Made by a program: the position numbers and the translations under genes. This document shows positions 27,111 to 35,722 of a stretch of 35,722 bases of DNA, piece after piece. The notes beneath the pieces are model-generated. The model saw only the letters and a list, made by a program, of their open reading frames with translations, made no database searches and was not told the DNA's origin. Every line of letters starts with the position of its first letter. The first letter of the stretch is position 1. The DNA is from Megasphaera sp. (GTDB lineage: Bacteria; Bacillota; Negativicutes; Veillonellales; Megasphaeraceae): assembly GCA_022649055.1 (NCBI GenBank), contig JALCNL010000016.1, positions 1 through 35,722 of the forward strand, written 5' to 3'.

Positions 27111-29549
27111 CTACGTACTTTCAACAGGTTTAATATGCCAAATATCACGTGCATATTGCCGAATCGTCCGATCACTGGAAAAAAATCCCGAATGTGCTAT
27201 ATTTACGGCACTAGACTGAAGCCATTTATAGTGATTTTGATAACGGCAGCCGATATTTTTCTGTGCCTCGCAATACGAATCAAAATCTTTCAGCACAAAA
27301 TATTCATCATTTCGATCCAAAAGAGAATCATATAACATTTGGAAAGCATAATTGCCGTTTCCCAACGAACCATCTACTAAATGTGTCAAAAGCATGCGAA
27401 TGTGCTCATTTGTACGATATAAATCCCAAGATGAATATCCGCCGTGAACATAATACTTCATCACTTCATCGGCCCGCAGTCCAAAAATAACACAGTTATC
27501 GTCACCTACTTCATGATGAATTTCTACGTTAGCGCCATCCATAGTCCCTAATGTAATAGCTCCATTCATCATAAACTTCATATTGCCGGTTCCGGAAGCT
27601 TCTTTACCGGCCGTAGAAATTTGTTCGCTTACATCGGCTGCCGGAAATAAAAGTTGAGCTAAAGAAACATTATAATTTTCTAAAAACAGTACTTTTAATT
27701 TTCCCTCCAAACTATGATCCCCATTAATCATTTTACTAACTACATTAATGAGTTTAATCGTCATTTTTGCTTCGCCATACCCTGCCGCAGCTTTTCCGCC
27801 AAATAAATATGTGCGCGGAACGATATCCATGTTCGGATTCTCTTTTAATGCATAATACAGATTGAGAATATGGAGAATATTCAACAGTTGACGCTTATAC
27901 AGATGGAATCGTTTAATTTGTATATCAAATACAGACTCTGTATCAATTTGCTGTCCATATTCCGTTCTGATATAGGATGCAAGTATATTTTTGCGTGTTC
28001 TTTTTACTTGATCCAATTGTTCCAGAAAAGCAGCATCTGATGCATATGCTGCTAGATTTATCATATGTTCGGGATGTTTACGCCATGTATTTCCGATAGC
28101 TGAATCGATAAGCTGTGCCAGCTGTGGATTGGACTGAATCAACCATCGCCGATGAGACACTCCGTTTGTCTTATTATTGAAACGTTCGGGAAAGCAGCTA
28201 TAGAATGCATGCAACGTAGATTCCTTCAATATTTGCGAGTGAATTTCCGCCACCCCATTAATACTATGACTTCCCAATACGGCAAGATGAGCCATATGAA
28301 CCTGATTATCCCAAAGGATAGCCACTTCACGCGCTTTTGCCTCATCGCCGGGATTTTTATTCCGTACCTGCTGCAGCCATCGCTTGTTTAATTCTTCTAT
28401 GATTAAATAGATGCGCGGCAGTAATTCTTTAAACAGGGGAATGGACCAGCGCTCCATTGCTTCCGGCAAAATAGTATGATTGGTATAGGCTACAACTTCC
28501 GTGGTAATATCCCATGCCGTTTCCCACGGCAGCCCTTCTTCGTCCATAAAAATCCGCATTAATTCAGGTATAACCAAAGCGGGATGCGTATCATTGATAT
28601 GAATGGCCACATAGTGCCCAAATACTTTAATATTAGGGCTTATCTTCTGCTTAAAATGCCGGACTATACTTTGGACGCCGGCAGAGACCATAAAGTACTC
28701 CTGCATAAGCCGTAACCTGCGGCCTTCTTCCGTACTGTCTTCCGGATACAAAAAGCGAGAAATAAGCTGTACATTATCTTTATAGCGAAATGCCTCATGT
28801 CGATTTCCTTTGGCCAAGACACGATATACATCTTCTCGGGTATATTCGGCACGCCATAACCGCAATGTATTGACGGTATCATTATGATAGCCAACCATAG
28901 GCACATCATACGGCACAGCACGGACAGAGTGATAATTTTCGTATACGCATTCCAAGTTTCCCTCACCGTCAGGACGCATATACGCATTGCCGCTAAAACA
29001 TACATTGACCGCCTTATCTACTTTCTTCACTTCCCACGGATAGCCATCTACCAGCCAATTATCCGGAAGTTCAACTTGTTGTCCATCCACAATACGTTGA
29101 TTAAACAACCCATATTGATAGCGGATACTACATCCATGACCGGGCAAACGAAGAGCTGCCAAAGAATCTGCAAAACACGCTGCAAGACGGCCTAATCCTC
29201 CATTCCCCAATCCCGGATCTCGTTCTTCCGGTATAATAGCATCCAAATCCCAACCCAAATCATGCAATCCTTCGCGGCAAACTGTTTCCATATCAACACC
29301 AATCAAATTTGACTGCAGTAATCTTCCCAATAAAAATTCAATCGAAAAATAATATACTTGTTTAACTTTCTTTTCTACATACATCTTATTGGTTTTAATC
29401 CAATCTTCACTTATTAAATCACGAATCATAAATGCAACGGTCTGATATACTTCGTTTGGTATAAGGTCGCGCACATCTTTTTCCCATGCTACATGAGATT
29501 TACGAATAAATATTTTTTTGAATTCTTCTTTATCTTTCCATTTCTTCAT
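27111..29549 (-). CDS. glgP: Glycogen/maltodextrin phosphorylase
   Basis: GlgP releases glucose-1-phosphate from glucan ends using phosphate and PLP (GT35). Landmarks are EFLLGRLLQSNLIG, DPGLGNGGLGRLAACFADSLA, HINDTHPAL, NGVSHRRWL, RIxxFHxYKRQLLN-type sequence IKRFHLYKRQLLN, and the PLP site ASGTGNMKFMMNGA with its lysine. At 812 residues it is full length. The start is taken as the ATG at 29549 (MKKWKDKE), seven bases after AGAGG; the frame stays open 14 codons further to a TTG that overlaps glgD and lacks a site. No N-terminal extension suggests allosteric phosphorylation. It sits 19 bases after glgD, so breakdown is co-encoded with synthesis. Confidence 0.96.
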   Translation of the reverse strand: MKKWKDKEEFKKIFIRKSHVAWEKDVRDLIPNEVYQTVAFMIRDLISEDWIKTNKMYVEKKVKQVYYFSIEFLLGRLLQSNLIGVDMETVCREGLHDLGWDLDAIIPEERDPGLGNGGLGRLAACFADSLAALRLPGHGCSIRYQYGLFNQRIVDGQQVELPDNWLVDGYPWEVKKVDKAVNVCFSGNAYMRPDGEGNLECVYENYHSVRAVPYDVPMVGYHNDTVNTLRLWRAEYTREDVYRVLAKGNRHEAFRYKDNVQLISRFLYPEDSTEEGRRLRLMQEYFMVSAGVQSIVRHFKQKISPNIKVFGHYVAIHINDTHPALVIPELMRIFMDEEGLPWETAWDITTEVVAYTNHTILPEAMERWSIPLFKELLPRIYLIIEELNKRWLQQVRNKNPGDEAKAREVAILWDNQVHMAHLAVLGSHSINGVAEIHSQILKESTLHAFYSCFPERFNNKTNGVSHRRWLIQSNPQLAQLIDSAIGNTWRKHPEHMINLAAYASDAAFLEQLDQVKRTRKNILASYIRTEYGQQIDTESVFDIQIKRFHLYKRQLLNILHILNLYYALKENPNMDIVPRTYLFGGKAAAGYGEAKMTIKLINVVSKMINGDHSLEGKLKVLFLENYNVSLAQLLFPAADVSEQISTAGKEASGTGNMKFMMNGAITLGTMDGANVEIHHEVGDDNCVIFGLRADEVMKYYVHGGYSSWDLYRTNEHIRMLLTHLVDGSLGNGNYAFQMLYDSLLDRNDEYFVLKDFDSYCEAQKNIGCRYQNHYKWLQSSAVNIAHSGFFSSDRTIRQYARDIWHIKPVEST

Positions 29550-29568
29550 GCGCATACCTCTCTTTACA

Positions 29569-30681
29569 TCAGATAACCGAATATTTTCCAATACATAAAG
29601 GCATTTGTTTTGTCCCCGTCAGCACAGCTTCTGACTGAATAATTGCATTTTTGTCACAAATAACATAGTTTAGCTGTGCATCATCACCAACGGCAGAGTG
29701 CTGCATAATGATACTGTTACGTATGACCGCATTTTTTCCCACACGGACTTTGCGAAAAAGAATGCTGTTTTCTACCCGGCCTTCAATAATACAGCCATTC
29801 GCTACCAGTGAGTTATTTACAGCGGATTCCTCCATATATTTGGCCGGAGCTTCATCTTTTATTTTTGTATATATCCGCCTTTCTCCATCAAGAAAGAGAC
29901 TGCGCCATTTTTTTACATCCAGTAATTCCATATTCGCATTAAAATACGCAGGAACGGAATGAATACAAGCCGTATAGCCTTGATAATTAAAACCGAAAAC
30001 GCGCAGCCGGTCAATGTTTCTTTTTAAAATATCCGTCAATATGAATTTATACCCTTTGGCATATGCCAGACGGACAGATCGATTAAATATTTCACAATCA
30101 ATCAAGATTCCGCGCATATAGACATTTTCACCGCTTTTCACATGCGTTTTAGGAGTTATCTCCGTAATACGGTCTTTATCATCTGTATCAAGTATATAAA
30201 AATTGCCAGTTATATCTGTTGCCGGGTGGTGATAAATTACAGTCACATCGGCATTATGCCGACGATGGAAATGAAGAACCTTTTCATAGTCTATATTTTG
30301 TACATAGTCACTGCGCGTAATCAGGATATAAGGTTGTACCGCCCGCTCTACAAACGATAAATTATGATAATATGTACGAACATCCCCCTCCATAGGATGA
30401 ATAATATCTTGTGCTTCCAGCGGCAAGTAAAATAAGCCATCTCCCTTGCGGGCCAGATTCCAATCCTTAGCAGAACGTATGTGGTCTAATACAGAACGCG
30501 ATTCTGCAGAAAGAAGAATTCCTATATCCCCGATACCAGCGTTTACCATATTGGATAAAGTAAAATCAATAAGGCGAAATTTTCCGCCAAACGGCATAGT
30601 AGCTAATGGACGTCTTTCATTCAATTCGCGCAGCGGATTATCTTCCTGGAGATTTATCAATCCAATGATTTGGCTGCTCAT
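29569..30681 (-). CDS. glgD: Glucose-1-phosphate adenylyltransferase, GlgD subunit
   Basis: GlgD is the regulatory, usually inactive partner of GlgC in Firmicutes. The 370-residue sequence keeps the nucleotidyltransferase fold ([21 protein letters not shown]) and the left-handed beta-helix end ([35 protein letters not shown]). The N-terminal loop that in GlgC is [10 protein letters not shown] reads [19 protein letters not shown], so the key phosphate-binding glycines and arginine are missing. This fits a subunit that tunes GlgC and does not catalyse by itself. The ATG at 30681 overlaps the glgC stop in ATGA and is preceded by AAGGAGA, so translation is coupled. Confidence 0.94.
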
Positions 30682-31844
30682 GCTATCACGTCTCCTTGTA
30701 TCTGTCCCTCACTCGCTTTTATCTTTTCATCGTTACCGACAACCATTACGGTACCATCGTCATTATGAACAACTGCATTACTTTGAATAATACATCTTTC
30801 GCCAATAATAGCTTTATCTACTACTGCATTTTTTTCAATACTTGTCCCCGGCATTAAAACGGAATTAGTCACCTTTGCACCTTCTTCAATAGTAACACCG
30901 TAAAAAACAACCGAACGTATCACCGTACCTAAAATTTGAGATCCCTCCCCTACAAGAGAGCTTCTGGCACTGCCATGCGGTCCAATGACATGAGGTGGCA
31001 GCGATTGACTGCCGGAATAAATACGCCAATCAGAATTATTCAGATCAAGAGGTGGATCATCGGCTAATAAATCCATATTCGCCTGCCACAAGCTTTCAAT
31101 GGTACCTACATCTTTCCAATATCCTTCAAAAGGATATGCATACAGCGGCAGATTTTGTGACAGCATCGCAGGAATAACATTCTTTCCAAAATCATGTTCT
31201 GAATGTATTTCCTTTGCATCCGCCATTAAATATGTTTTCAGGAGTTTTCGATTAAAAATATAAATTCCCATAGAAGCAAGATTGCTTTCCGGATGTATCG
31301 GCTTCTCCTGAAACTTACGTATTTTCATGTTATCGTCAGTCGTCATAATACCAAAACGGCTGGCATCGCTCCATGGGACACGAATCGTGCCAATAGTAAC
31401 ACCTGCATGATGTTTTTTATGAAATGCCAGCATTTTCGAATAGTCCATGGAATAAATATGATCGCCTGATAATACAAGAACATAATCGGAACCAATCATA
31501 TCCACAAAATTCATATTTTGATAAATAGCGTCAGCCGTTCCATGATACCAATTGGTTCCGTCATCTGTCATATAAGGCGGTAGCACAAAAGTTCCTCCAC
31601 GGTCAGAATCAAGATCCCAAGAACTTCCGTTTCCTACATACCAATTCAGTGCCAACGGTTGATATTGAGTTAAAATGCCGACTGTATCAATGCCGGAATG
31701 ACGGCAATTACTCAATGTAAAGTCAATAATGCGGTACTTTCCGCCAAACAGCAGTCCTGGTTTGGCTTGGTTTTTAGTAAGAACCCCCAAACGGCTTCCT
31801 TTTCCTCCGGCAAGTATCATGGCTAAACAATTAGATTTTCTCAT
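30678..31844 (-). CDS. glgC: Glucose-1-phosphate adenylyltransferase (ADP-glucose pyrophosphorylase), GlgC
   Basis: GlgC makes ADP-glucose from ATP and glucose-1-phosphate, the committed step of glycogen synthesis. The 388-residue protein has the catalytic loop [34 protein letters not shown], the substrate segments [13 protein letters not shown] and FQEKP, and the C-terminal beta-helix with [28 protein letters not shown]. The start is the ATG at 31844, seven bases after AGGAGG; the frame continues 22 codons upstream without any site or family likeness. It is the first gene of glgCDPBA-fusion, so committed synthesis leads the operon, and it overlaps glgD by 4 bases. Confidence 0.97.
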
Positions 31845-31973
31845 AGAATTGCCTCCTGATTCCGAAAGACATACCGACTTGATACACATATTTTTAATTA
31901 TCAACTGCAATATTTGATATTTCCATTCTTCCCTTCTGACTTTTCGGTATTCTTTCCCTGATATATTATTTAA

Positions 31974-32154: not shown

Positions 32155-32382
32155 TTATATTATTTTAAGTTGATTTACATCAAGAAGTTCTACTCTAAAA
32201 GGCAGCGACATCAGTATTTCTTTCGTCAATTCTTTTGTATCGATAACAGTTCTTACAAATCCAATTCCTTTTTTGCCATCTAATGCGGTAACCACTCCCA
32301 AGTATTCGCAGCCTTCTATAATACGTGTTACAAACGTCATATTTTCTGGTTTTATACGGAAATAAACCCAATCGTGATTCAT
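32155..32382 (-). CDS. Small DUF4911 protein coupled to trhP
   Basis: A 75-residue cytosolic protein resembling DUF4911, a family often found next to U32 peptidase genes in anaerobic Firmicutes (from memory). Visible features are the start MNHDWVYFRIKPENMTFVTRIIEGCEYLGVVTALDGKKGIGFVRTV and a hydrophobic/charged C-terminal end; there is no signal peptide or membrane segment. The pattern of short alternating strands suggests a small alpha/beta fold. Its ATG overlaps the trhP stop codon as ATGA, so it is translated with trhP and may help it, for example as a binding or regulatory subunit. That role is inference. It is the last gene before the operon terminator. Confidence 0.82.
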   Translation of the reverse strand: MNHDWVYFRIKPENMTFVTRIIEGCEYLGVVTALDGKKGIGFVRTVIDTKELTKEILMSLPFRVELLDVNQLKII

Positions 32383-33608
32383 GACTCTGCCACCTTTCGG
32401 CGCATCATAGAATACGGCTGCAGCGGCGTATCAATATAAATACCCACCTTCATCTGCGGATGAGGCGCTACAGTAATAATCGCGTTCTTTTCATCAATCA
32501 TTTTTGTAATAATATGATGCACATTTTTCCCTCGAGGTTGTAAAAACTCAACGGTATCGCCAACTTTAAAATTATTGCGCTGTTCCAAATATACGATTTT
32601 TTTTTCTTTGTCATAGGAAGTAACAAGACCGATAAATTCATGTGTCTGTGTATTACTGGAGTGGCTGTATACTTGATCGGCTTCCGTTGGACGAGATACA
32701 GAAAACCCTTTCGTATATGGTCGGTGAGAAATCTTCTCCAATTCATCCAGCCATTCCTGTTTTACAGAAAAATGTTCAGGATCTCGTTCAAATGCATCCA
32801 AAGCTTCCCGATAAACTTTTACTACAGTAGCAACATAATGTACACTTTTCATACGTCCTTCTATTTTCAGACTACATAAGCCTGCCTCATATAATGCAGG
32901 CAAATAAGGAAGCAGGCACAAATCTTTCGAATTAAAAATATAGGTTCCCCTATCATCTTCCGTAACAGGAAAATATTGACCAGGCCGGGTTTCTTCAACA
33001 ATATTATATTTCCAGCGGCAGGCTTGCACACATTGGCCACGGTTAGAATCTCTGTTTTGTGTAAAATAATTACTCAATAAACAACGTCCGGAATAAGAAA
33101 TACACATAGCACCATGTACAAACCCTTCCAATTCAACCGGAACTTTTTCGTGAATAACTTTTATATCGGCAAGACTAACTTCTCTTGCCATAACCACACG
33201 TTTGGCACCGGCTTCCTGCCAGAATTTAGCCGATATCCAGTTTGTTGTATTCGCTTGCGTACTGATATGAACCGGCATCCGGGGAACAATTTTTCTGGCC
33301 AGATAAAACACACCCGGATCTGCCACTAAGATAGCATCTACCCCTATGCTGTCCAGATATTCCAAATATTCCGGCAAGCCTTTAAAATCATCATTATGAG
33401 GAAAAATATTAACGGTTACATGCACTTTCTTTTTCAAGGAATGTGCAAAAGAAACAGCCTCTCTTAGTTCTTCATCTGTAAAATTGCCGCTATAGGCACG
33501 CAATCCAAAAGCTTTCCCGCCTAAATAAACAGCATCGGCACCATAAAGCAATGCCATTTTCATTTTATCCATATTACCGGCAGGTGCCAATAATTCCATT
33601 TTCTGCAT
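32379..33608 (-). CDS. trhP: U32-family tRNA hydroxylation protein TrhP
   Basis: Annotated in many genomes as a U32 peptidase, but relatives (Escherichia TrhP, Bacillus YrrN/YrrO) form 5-hydroxyuridine at tRNA position 34. The 409-residue protein has the start MELLAPAGNMDKMKMALLYGADAVYLG, an HISTQANTTN segment, and the U32 signature EGFVHGAMCISYSGRCLLSNY. Cysteines C169, C176 and C193, with C197 or C231, form the expected Fe-S site. Bacillus has two such genes (P1, P2) where only this one is seen here. ATG at 33608 follows AAAGGA by seven bases. It overlaps trmR by 35 bases and DUF4911 by 4, marking one tightly coupled unit. Confidence 0.9.
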   Translation of the reverse strand: MQKMELLAPAGNMDKMKMALLYGADAVYLGGKAFGLRAYSGNFTDEELREAVSFAHSLKKKVHVTVNIFPHNDDFKGLPEYLEYLDSIGVDAILVADPGVFYLARKIVPRMPVHISTQANTTNWISAKFWQEAGAKRVVMAREVSLADIKVIHEKVPVELEGFVHGAMCISYSGRCLLSNYFTQNRDSNRGQCVQACRWKYNIVEETRPGQYFPVTEDDRGTYIFNSKDLCLLPYLPALYEAGLCSLKIEGRMKSVHYVATVVKVYREALDAFERDPEHFSVKQEWLDELEKISHRPYTKGFSVSRPTEADQVYSHSSNTQTHEFIGLVTSYDKEKKIVYLEQRNNFKVGDTVEFLQPRGKNVHHIITKMIDEKNAIITVAPHPQMKVGIYIDTPLQPYSMMRRKVAES

Positions 33609-34203
33609 ACTCGTATCCTTTCCAATAGGAAACGGTCATTCCGTCTCCGTTTTCATAAAAAGTCGTCTCAAATCTTTTATCCTGAGTTACCATTCGTAAA
33701 TATTCTCGAAGCCGCATAACAATCGTACGATGTTTATGAGGTATCGTTCCCTTGATGCGTACCATTCCATGATATAAAATATTATCAGCAATAATAACTG
33801 CCCGCGGCGACAGTTCGGGAATTAATTTCACAAGCTGTCGTGAATACTGCCCTTTAGGCCCATCCAAAAAAACTAAGTCCCACGGACCTTTTAAATCATT
33901 TAAAAGAACGGCGGCATCTCCGATCAATTGTGTAACACGATCTTCGCAATGTGCTCGTGCAATGTATTCTCGTGCTTTATACGCGCGCTCCTTGTCAATC
34001 TCAATGGTAACAATCGATCCGTTTTCAGGCAGCAGCGGAACCATCTGCAATGTAGAATACCCAATAGCCGTTCCGATTTCCAAAACACGCTTCGGAGCCG
34101 CTTCCGCTATTAATCTGCAAAATAGAGTTACTTCCGTATCACGTAAAATAGGAATCATCTGCGCTGCTGCATATTTTTTCATTTCTTCAAATAACTCCTT
34201 CAC
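33574..34203 (-). CDS. trmR: tRNA 5-hydroxyuridine(34) O-methyltransferase TrmR (YrrM-like)
   Basis: A 209-residue SAM-dependent O-methyltransferase. Motif I is VLEIGTAIGYSTLQM (about 40-54), followed by IVTIEIDKERA, DLVFLDGPKGQYS and AVIIADNILYHGMV, the class I pattern of the YrrM/COMT-like group. In Bacillus TrmR methylates 5-hydroxyuridine at tRNA position 34 to 5-methoxyuridine; here it sits between mltG and trhP exactly as in Bacillus yrrL-yrrM-yrrN, which supports the same job. The start is a GTG at 34203, eight bases after AAGGAG and overlapping the mltG stop as GTGA. An ATG seven codons later is less well spaced. Without the neighbours, it would be called only an O-methyltransferase. 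Confidence 0.88.
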   Translation of the reverse strand: MKELFEEMKKYAAAQMIPILRDTEVTLFCRLIAEAAPKRVLEIGTAIGYSTLQMVPLLPENGSIVTIEIDKERAYKAREYIARAHCEDRVTQLIGDAAVLLNDLKGPWDLVFLDGPKGQYSRQLVKLIPELSPRAVIIADNILYHGMVRIKGTIPHKHRTIVMRLREYLRMVTQDKRFETTFYENGDGMTVSYWKGYEYAENGIIGTCR

Positions 34204-35264
34204 GGCATATACTCCTTCACATTCTGCATATGTTCTTCATAGGTCCGGGAAAAATGATTATGCCCCTTAGCGTCTGCTACAAAAAACAAATATTCCGTAT
34301 CTTTCGCTTCGGCAACAGCCTTCAAGCAGTTTACCCCGGGATTGCCAATCGGTCCCGGAGGAAGTCCTGTATATAAATATGTATTATACGGAGAATCAAT
34401 TTTCGTCTCTTCTATACTATAGGCTGATTTATGAGATCCTAAAGAATAAGAAAGGCTGGCATCAGACTGCAGCGGCATATTGATTTTCAACCGTTTAAGA
34501 AATACCGCGGCAATAATCGGCTGGTCTTCTTCATATTGTGCCTCTTTTTCTACCATGGAGGCTAATGTAACAAACTGATAAATTGACATATTGTGCTGGT
34601 CTGCGCTTTCCCTCATATTTTCTGTAAGATGCTTATCAAAATTATCCAGCATCATTTTTACTATCTGATCTGCCGTTGCCCCTCGCGGGATAAAATATGT
34701 ATCAGGAAATAAAAAACCTTCTGACGGAAACGTAACTACACGATTTCCATACATATAAGGGTATAAGTTTTTCGTATCTGCCGCTGCCGACAAAAAATCA
34801 GCCTCTTTCACCAATCCTTTTTGATCGAGCACTTGGGCAATGCGACGAACCGTATATCCTTCAGGAATCACAATGCGTTCCGCTTCTGATTTACCGCTTA
34901 CCAATTTTGCCATTAAATCATGCAGGCTCATGCGGTTGTTGACCAGATATTCTCCTTGTTTCATTGTATTGGCTGTTCCCGTTAAAGTTGCCACTGCCCG
35001 AAACCACCACGTATTGGAAATAATCCCTTTTTTTTGTAATTCTGCGGCAATCTCACCGGCAGTCATCGTATCGTGAACTTCTATATACGCTTCTGCCGGT
35101 TTTAAAAATGAAATAGGTGCATAATAAGCTGCCTCTGCACTGACCACTCCCAAAATAATAAAACAGCAAACTAAGGTTACGGTAATTTGTTTTTTATTCC
35201 AGGTATGGTTTTTCATGATTGATCCACTTGTATTAACTTCTTGTGTATTATTTTTTTTATCCAT
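34200..35264 (-). CDS. mltG: Endolytic peptidoglycan transglycosylase MltG
   Basis: MltG cuts nascent glycan strands in the inner membrane and sets their length. The 354-residue protein has an N-terminal cytosolic tail, one membrane segment (about 27-48), a LysM-like subdomain (EAYIEVHDTMTAGEIAAELQKKG) and the YceG catalytic domain with E239 in ASMVEKEAQ and DSPYNTYLYTGLPPGPIGNPG. Two starts are possible: the ATG at 35264, only a few bases after the predicted transcription start, or the ATG at 35216 (MKNHTWNK), preceded by a weak AGTGGA. I give the longer form. It leads the mltG-trmR-trhP-DUF4911 operon and overlaps trmR by four bases, as in Bacillus yrrL-yrrM. Confidence 0.92.
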   Translation of the reverse strand: MDKKNNTQEVNTSGSIMKNHTWNKKQITVTLVCCFIILGVVSAEAAYYAPISFLKPAEAYIEVHDTMTAGEIAAELQKKGIISNTWWFRAVATLTGTANTMKQGEYLVNNRMSLHDLMAKLVSGKSEAERIVIPEGYTVRRIAQVLDQKGLVKEADFLSAAADTKNLYPYMYGNRVVTFPSEGFLFPDTYFIPRGATADQIVKMMLDNFDKHLTENMRESADQHNMSIYQFVTLASMVEKEAQYEEDQPIIAAVFLKRLKINMPLQSDASLSYSLGSHKSAYSIEETKIDSPYNTYLYTGLPPGPIGNPGVNCLKAVAEAKDTEYLFFVADAKGHNHFSRTYEEHMQNVKEYMP

Positions 35265-35273
35265 AATGTATCT

Positions 35274-35303
35274 ATTATACTGTAAAATTATTGTATGTGG
35301 CAA
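35274..35303 (-). promoter_or_regulatory. Promoter of the mltG operon
   Basis: TTGCCA (35298-35303) and a perfect TATAAT (35274-35279) on minus are 18 bases apart. The start point would fall near 35267, leaving only about two to five untranslated bases before the ATG at 35264. Confidence 0.72.
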
Positions 35304-35355: not shown

Positions 35356-35390
35356 ATAATGCCGACAAAAACAGTCTTTGTCGGCGTTAT
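35356..35390 (-). terminator. Terminator of the gene at the right edge
   Basis: A 14-bp stem (35356-35369 with 35377-35390, core GCCGACAAA/TTTGTCGGC, one G-T pair) closes a 7-base loop and is followed on minus by TTTATTTTG. It ends the transcript arriving from the partial gene at 35408-35722. Confidence 0.85.
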
Positions 35391-35407: not shown

Positions 35408-35722
35408 TTACTTGGACGGACTCCAAATACGTTGCTGTTGCGCCAACTCTTCTCGCTGATCTATCTGCTGTGATTGTAAATCAGACTGCTGTTCATCTGC
35501 ATCTGCTTCAGCAGACTGTTGTACAGCCGCTTGAGCTGTCACCGTATTTTGACTGTTTGAAGATTGTTTTGCCGCTGATAATGCTGCTTTTGCAGCATCC
35601 TCCTGCGCTTTGATTCGATCATTCTCCGCTTGACGCATTTGTTCCCGTATTCGTGATTCCAATGGAATATCCGGAAAGGCACGAACATCGACATAGACTT
35701 CAAAAAGTCGATTCCACGGCAA
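35408..35722 (-). CDS. C-terminal end of an unrecognised protein with an Ala/Gln-rich tail
   Basis: The reading frame is open to the right edge, so only the last 104 codons are visible and the start is outside. The first part, WNRLFEVYVDVRAFPDIPLESRIREQM, is folded-looking, but I do not recognise it. From about residue 25 of the fragment the sequence turns into a charged, Ala/Gln/Asp-rich helix or disordered tail (KAQEDAAKAALSAAKQSS, later QQSAEADADEQQSDLQSQQ) with no cysteine and no membrane segment. It lies directly upstream of mltG on the same strand but has its own terminator and is separated by the mltG promoter, so it is a different transcript. In Bacillus the comparable place holds ruvX and small proteins, and this fragment resembles neither. 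Confidence 0.75.
   Translation of the reverse strand: MPWNRLFEVYVDVRAFPDIPLESRIREQMRQAENDRIKAQEDAAKAALSAAKQSSNSQNTVTAQAAVQQSAEADADEQQSDLQSQQIDQREELAQQQRIWSPSK

Follow-up and report, generated by a model that had tools for sequence, protein, structure and literature searches.

Our analysis indicated that DUF4911 (PF16256) is probably an accessory subunit, or an accessory domain, dedicated to TrhP, the U32-type tRNA hydroxylase. The gene arrangement that joins the two is real and conserved, and the link to TrhP is well supported by natural fusions of the two genes, whereas a physical interaction, the face used for docking and any influence on ho5U34 are what we infer from it. We accordingly see DUF4911 as a new addition to an enzyme already known and not as a system of a new type.

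An overlapping gene run in Megasphaera

The window (the whole 35,722-nt stretch of Megasphaera sp. DNA analyzed here) carries the DUF4911 gene at the end of a run of overlapping genes (Table 1). From head to tail, mltG and trmR overlap by 4 nt, trmR and trhP by 35 nt, and trhP and the DUF4911 gene by 4 nt. The last two overlaps had been noticed in an earlier sequence-only reading of this DNA and were borne out by the open reading frames, to which mltG can now be added as a further member of the run.

Table 1 Features of the overlapping gene run and its upstream flank (window positions).
Feature	Position	Strand	Description
DUF4911 gene	32155..32382	-	75 aa, ATG start; ORF with PF16256 match; proposed accessory subunit of TrhP
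trhP	32379..33608	-	409 aa, ATG start; ORF with U32 + U32_C; prephenate-dependent tRNA U34 hydroxylase type
trmR-like SAM O-methyltransferase	33574..34203	-	209 aa, GTG start; ORF with PF01596 match
mltG (YceG-like endolytic transglycosylase)	34200..35303	-	first gene of the overlapping run
Terminator-like stem, 11 pairs	35361..35385	-	between mltG and the ORF upstream; consensus scan

The DUF4911 protein has PF16256 as its sole Pfam match (E-value 1.7e-14; 54.1 bits against a curated cut-off of 29.3), with residues 8-63 aligned over positions 1-56 of the 57 in the profile. The TrhP of the window contains Peptidase_U32 (PF01136; 4.4e-97) followed by Peptidase_U32_C (PF16325; 2.4e-27). Its alignment with the E. 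coli TrhP begins at residue 1, so the assigned start is plausible, and covers 451 columns, nearly the full length, at 38% identity. Its best match in NCBIfam is the TrhP model NF011996, with a score of 392 bits that falls under the curated cut-off of 534; we therefore regard the window protein as a TrhP-type U32 protein and not as a strict equivalog of the E. coli type. Four cysteines, which we take to hold the Fe-S cluster (the U32 cluster site), were invariant in all 47 aligned TrhPs, including that of the window. The TrmR-like protein matches Methyltransf_3 (PF01596; 2.3e-26); its name rests on the position beside trhP, as in B. subtilis, and its activity is putative. MltG matches YceG (PF02618; 6.3e-89) and scores above the cut-off of TIGR00247.

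Terminator-like sites are weak evidence in this DNA, with six found compared with 3.1 expected in shuffles. Upstream of mltG lies a Q/A-rich frame of 104 aa (35408-35722) with nothing above a curated cut-off. At the other end, ~245 nt behind the DUF4911 stop, a glycogen-type gene run occupies positions 27111-31910 on the same strand and includes one frame that resembles phosphorylase and two that resemble ADP-glucose pyrophosphorylase (all assigned by eye). A plasmid search gave no match. Across the Megasphaera genome (2.10 Mb in 97 contigs, 87% complete) we detected one DUF4911 gene and one U32 gene of the TrhP type, besides an 815-aa gene that matches U32 twice, and an alignment-based search of the same genome returned no gene resembling TrhP2, the additional U32 protein that Bacillus has. 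The single trhP copy described in the sequence-only reading is in agreement with these results.

DUF4911 co-occurs with TrhP and adjoins it

Among 299 Bacillota genomes sampled across the phylum, DUF4911 was found in 75 (73 above the Pfam cut-off) and U32_C (PF16325) in 209; the two occurred together in 74 of the 75 (72 of the 73 above cut-off). Co-occurrence with trhP was a check named before the analysis, and a lack of it, the outcome that would have spoken against a partnership, was not seen. The associated probability (Fisher P 8.2e-13) treats genomes as independent and is uncorrected for ancestry, and is thus descriptive. Within the class Negativicutes (200 genomes), DUF4911 was present in 118 and PF16325 in 198, and the two genomes that lacked PF16325 also lacked DUF4911.

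TrhP was encoded directly upstream of DUF4911 in 64/64 Negativicutes loci (window included; some genomes counted twice), 33 of them from named records, Veillonella, Sporomusa, Dialister and Propionispira among them. The same adjacency held for 30/30 loci of the phylum sample, four as fusions. By coordinates in the 299-genome sample, 65 of 89 DUF4911 matches lie 25-673 nt (median 44) behind a U32_C on the same strand, and seven more proved adjacent when their loci were read (L094, L147, L160, L177, L188, L189 and L190). Of the matches above cut-off, 72/85 are directly behind trhP or within it. The remaining 17 of the 89 comprise eight from a second subfamily (see below), two cut pieces (L175, L176), three from one family (genomes G220, G326 and G458) and four under the cut-off. 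The spacing is also tight: of 91 distinct loci, 53 have a DUF4911 start that precedes the trhP stop, and 23 more have one within 20 nt of it. This coupling exceeds chance. We also observed two tandem DUF4911 genes behind one trhP (L163:5989-6496) and, by coordinates, a similar pair in genome G337.

Natural fusions and the TrhP tree

TrhP and DUF4911 form one reading frame in six genomes (L068, L069, L081 and L083, which are one family; L108/L161; L120/L162). These fusions fall in three separate places on a tree built from 100 TrhPs, and those of L108 and L120 each neighbor unfused TrhPs that have a separate DUF4911 gene. In the fusions the DUF4911 part is C-terminal and comes just after U32_C. 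TrhP was the only fusion partner seen for DUF4911. In our view, the strongest indication that the two proteins work together is that their genes have become joined three times separately.

On the same tree, the presence or absence of DUF4911 requires at least nine changes, compared with an average of 26.5 when labels are shuffled, and the starred branches force three. DUF4911 beside TrhP is therefore old and has been lost at times, for example in L119 and L121. Both of these loci nest within the DUF4911-bearing Negativicutes TrhPs, which indicates that DUF4911 is dispensable in that lineage. As to whether the window TrhP is nearer to E. coli TrhP or to TrhP1, the AU test rejected no placement, the E. 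coli branch being long. Residue covariation between TrhP and DUF4911 was uninformative, with scattered top pairs, 32% of the top 60 lying in U32_C against 23% expected, in an alignment of 97 pairs whose effective number is 71.

DUF4911 without TrhP and TrhP without DUF4911

The association is not strict in either direction. TrhP without DUF4911 is common, given that 82 of the 200 class genomes have no DUF4911 while 198 have U32_C. Conversely, Thermotoga maritima (a control genome) has DUF4911 and neither U32 nor U32_C, and genome G458 has DUF4911 and no TrhP-type U32 gene, only a long double-U32 gene. In G220 and G326, DUF4911 and trhP lie apart. Loci L185, L186 and L187 are one family in which DUF4911 is away from trhP.

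A second DUF4911 subfamily (ten loci, L165-L174, of which L169 and L170 are near copies) is unlinked to trhP and has an N-terminal extension that reads RRYKG-, KRYRG- or KAYHG-like near the start. Genomes with this subfamily also carry a DUF4911 gene beside TrhP. A lactate-racemase-like gene is directly upstream in 3/8 scanned loci (L167, L172 and L173); other neighbors include RecG, a subtilase and an HD-GGDEF protein. Taken with T. maritima and G458, the second subfamily indicates that the DUF4911 domain is broader than TrhP, and our claim is limited to the TrhP-linked subfamily.

A probable link to hydroxylation rather than methylation

TrmR was encoded directly upstream of TrhP in 15/34 wide loci with DUF4911 and in 11/28 wide trhP loci without it (phmmer, E 1e-3; wide loci of the phylum set, loci only). 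DUF4911 also remains behind trhP where trmR is missing from the locus. In a metagenome-assembled genome (L044:5694-8201), mltG, trhP and DUF4911 come in direct succession, and no trmR was detected between mltG and trhP. Since TrmR is about as frequent with DUF4911 as without it, we rejected a DUF4911-TrmR tie and assign DUF4911 to the hydroxylation step and not to methylation. Thus, the earlier suggestion that DUF4911 works with TrhP found support in the adjacency across Bacillota, the natural fusions and the co-occurrence, while a tie to TrmR did not.

Predicted structure and conserved residues

The AlphaFold2 model of the window DUF4911 (alignment of 100 relatives) had a mean pLDDT of 92.6 and a pTM of 0.81. 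Its elements (E3-9, H12-24, E29-35, E40-46, H47-58 and E65-67) follow the order beta-alpha-beta-beta-alpha-beta, and a ferredoxin-like fold is confidently predicted. Foldseek with this model returned no match under E 0.001 (best 0.036). A second structural comparison placed V-ATPase subunit a, PstA, CutA, SBDS, HMA and Pop5 at tied or near scores of Z ~8; with so many unrelated families tied, the fold is a common one and says nothing of function. The matches listed in this comparison included no ACT domains, to which we attach no weight. No sequence relatives of DUF4911 were found in the PDB (best E 0.05).

Across 88 TrhP-linked rows, the conserved residues are E23 (94%), G24, Y25, L28 (92%), G29, T33 (91%), G39, T46 (91%), D48 and T49. 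Position 33 is P, Q or K in the second subfamily. The window protein departs from the consensus in three of these residues (C25, A33 and V46) and is thus a somewhat diverged member. Two motifs are conserved, E-G-Y-E-x-L-G at the end of helix 1 and a T-P-D-T turn at the start of helix 2, and judging from fold topology, not coordinates, both should lie on one edge of the fold. The mean net charge is -3.2 over 91 domains, and residue 20 (R 64%, K 20%) is the sole basic residue among the conserved places. Only 34 of the 91 domains have any cysteine, and no cysteine column is conserved. The acidic charge and the lack of conserved cysteines argue against RNA binding or metal coordination by the domain. 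We also considered an HMA-type metal chaperone, which was rejected on the same cysteine counts.

A model of the TrhP-DUF4911 fusion (pLDDT 84.6, pTM 0.78) had its structural matches in the U32 and U32_C parts. Its DUF4911 part rests on six fused rows, as free DUF4911 proteins are split on aligning, and so we draw no docking from it.

TrhP2 and alternative roles for DUF4911

The closest known parallel is TrhP2 (YrrN) of B. subtilis, the partner of TrhP1 (YrrO), which is likewise a second gene in a trmR-trhP operon and accompanies a TrhP that has the C-terminal motif. It differs in being a ~310-aa U32 paralogue encoded before TrhP1, while DUF4911 is a 75-aa ferredoxin-like protein that has no U32 domain and is encoded after or inside TrhP. 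The four TrhP2-type sequences that we compared (L131:7240-8160, L140:4026-4964, L142:3894-4826 and L143:4001-4930) keep none or one of the four TrhP cysteines. With most of these cysteines lost, TrhP2 is probably a non-catalytic helper, that is, a pseudo-enzyme-like subunit. The likeness between DUF4911 and TrhP2 is one of a shared helper role and not of kinship. An alignment of four TrhP2 proteins, searched against the 299 Bacillota genomes, identified TrhP2 genes clearly in 11 (scores >377 bits; reading frames of 310-329 aa), and the other matches listed in this search scored no higher than 260 bits and had longer, TrhP frames. In B. subtilis, deleting either trhP1 or trhP2 abolishes the TrhP share of mo5U34, and in E. 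coli a single TrhP forms ho5U34 acting alone, according to the published study (PMC6599085). The E. coli TrhP (YegQ) has the same two domains as the window TrhP, but no DUF4911 was detected in E. coli, a control genome of our profile search.

It is conceivable that DUF4911 replaces TrhP2 and thereby lets a single trhP work. None of the 11 genomes with TrhP2 has DUF4911 (hypergeometric P 0.007, confounded by descent), so the two never occur together in the 299 genomes, and a non-catalytic-looking partner leaves a slot that DUF4911 could fill. However, the four TrhP1 rows with a TrhP2 neighbor form one clade in the TrhP tree, hence the exclusion may be mere ancestry; the two proteins have unrelated folds; and ~126 of the 209 U32_C genomes have neither TrhP2 nor DUF4911 above cut-off. 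These genomes, together with the E. coli enzyme that acts alone, indicate that a single trhP is the usual state and that no substitute is needed. We consider replacement quite unlikely, and the proposal in the sequence-only reading that DUF4911 compensates for a missing second trhP was not upheld. We also read 28 DUF4911-less loci for a hidden substitute behind trhP and saw no common small gene; the genes after trhP were penicillin-binding protein-like, udk-like or others (named by eye).

Three further roles need to be weighed against that of a TrhP accessory. DUF4911 could sense a small molecule in the manner of PII, CutA or ACT proteins and so link TrhP to a metabolite, such as prephenate or an aromatic amino acid. 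The matches of the second structural comparison include PstA (4wk3; Z 8.7, rmsd 2.3, 67 aligned), CutA (1vhf; Z 8.5, rmsd 2.2, 68 aligned) and GlnK (2j9e_B; Z 8.0, rmsd 2.3, 68 aligned), with which DUF4911 shares its strand-helix order; its conserved loops have no cysteine, and TrhP needs prephenate (PMC6599085). Nonetheless, the tied scores of other families, the Foldseek result and the lack of any sequence relation in the PDB leave the fold too common for an assignment, and a sensor appears unlikely. Alternatively, an RNA-binding DUF4911 could bring the anticodon arm to TrhP. It adjoins U32_C in the fusions, RNA-linked proteins of this fold (RNase P Pop5, RRM, SBDS) are among the structural matches, and Foldseek with the fusion model returned EF-G and EF-Tu (TM-scores of 0.12-0.16 by query length, the matching part not shown). 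Yet these structural scores are those of a common fold, and the acidic charge with its one conserved basic place argues against this role, to which we give little credence. Lastly, DUF4911 might have its own function and merely ride in the mltG-trhP operon, which would be consistent with its presence without TrhP in T. maritima and G458 and with the varied neighbors of the second subfamily, including the lactate-racemase-like gene. We find this very unlikely for the TrhP-linked subfamily, since fusions arose at three places on the tree with TrhP as the sole partner seen and DUF4911 persists behind trhP when trmR is gone.

Implications for tRNA hydroxylation in Bacillota

We therefore return to DUF4911 as an accessory of TrhP. 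It would be made in step with TrhP through coupled translation, and in some lineages it has become part of the enzyme as a C-terminal domain after the U32_C barrel. Most likely, DUF4911 would dock on TrhP via the E-G-Y-E-x-L-G stretch and the T-P-D-T turn, and would tune or stabilize the first step, U34 -> ho5U34; that it grips RNA or metal itself seems unlikely. More tentatively, and with considerable doubt, the oxygen-independent hydroxylases of the TrhP type in Bacillota may fall into three types: TrhP on its own, TrhP1 paired with a TrhP2 that lacks the cluster, and TrhP joined by DUF4911, which would be an active subunit needed for the reaction in those lineages. The excerpts of PMC6599085 available for this work describe TrhO and TrmR, and not TrhP, as rebuilt in vitro. 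If the three-type scheme is true, DUF4911 would be the part still lacking for a test-tube reconstitution of the prephenate-dependent reaction.

Our full-text search of 5.39 million open-access papers returned no mention of DUF4911 or PF16256, and a partnership with TrhP would, if true, be the first function for the family. ho5U34 and its derivatives widen codon reading. The partnership would also refine the picture of the TrhP1/TrhP2 pair in Firmicutes, as TrhP2 occurs in only 11 of the 299 Bacillota genomes, and the results offer an identified gene family for deletion and a natural fusion protein that is ready for purification.
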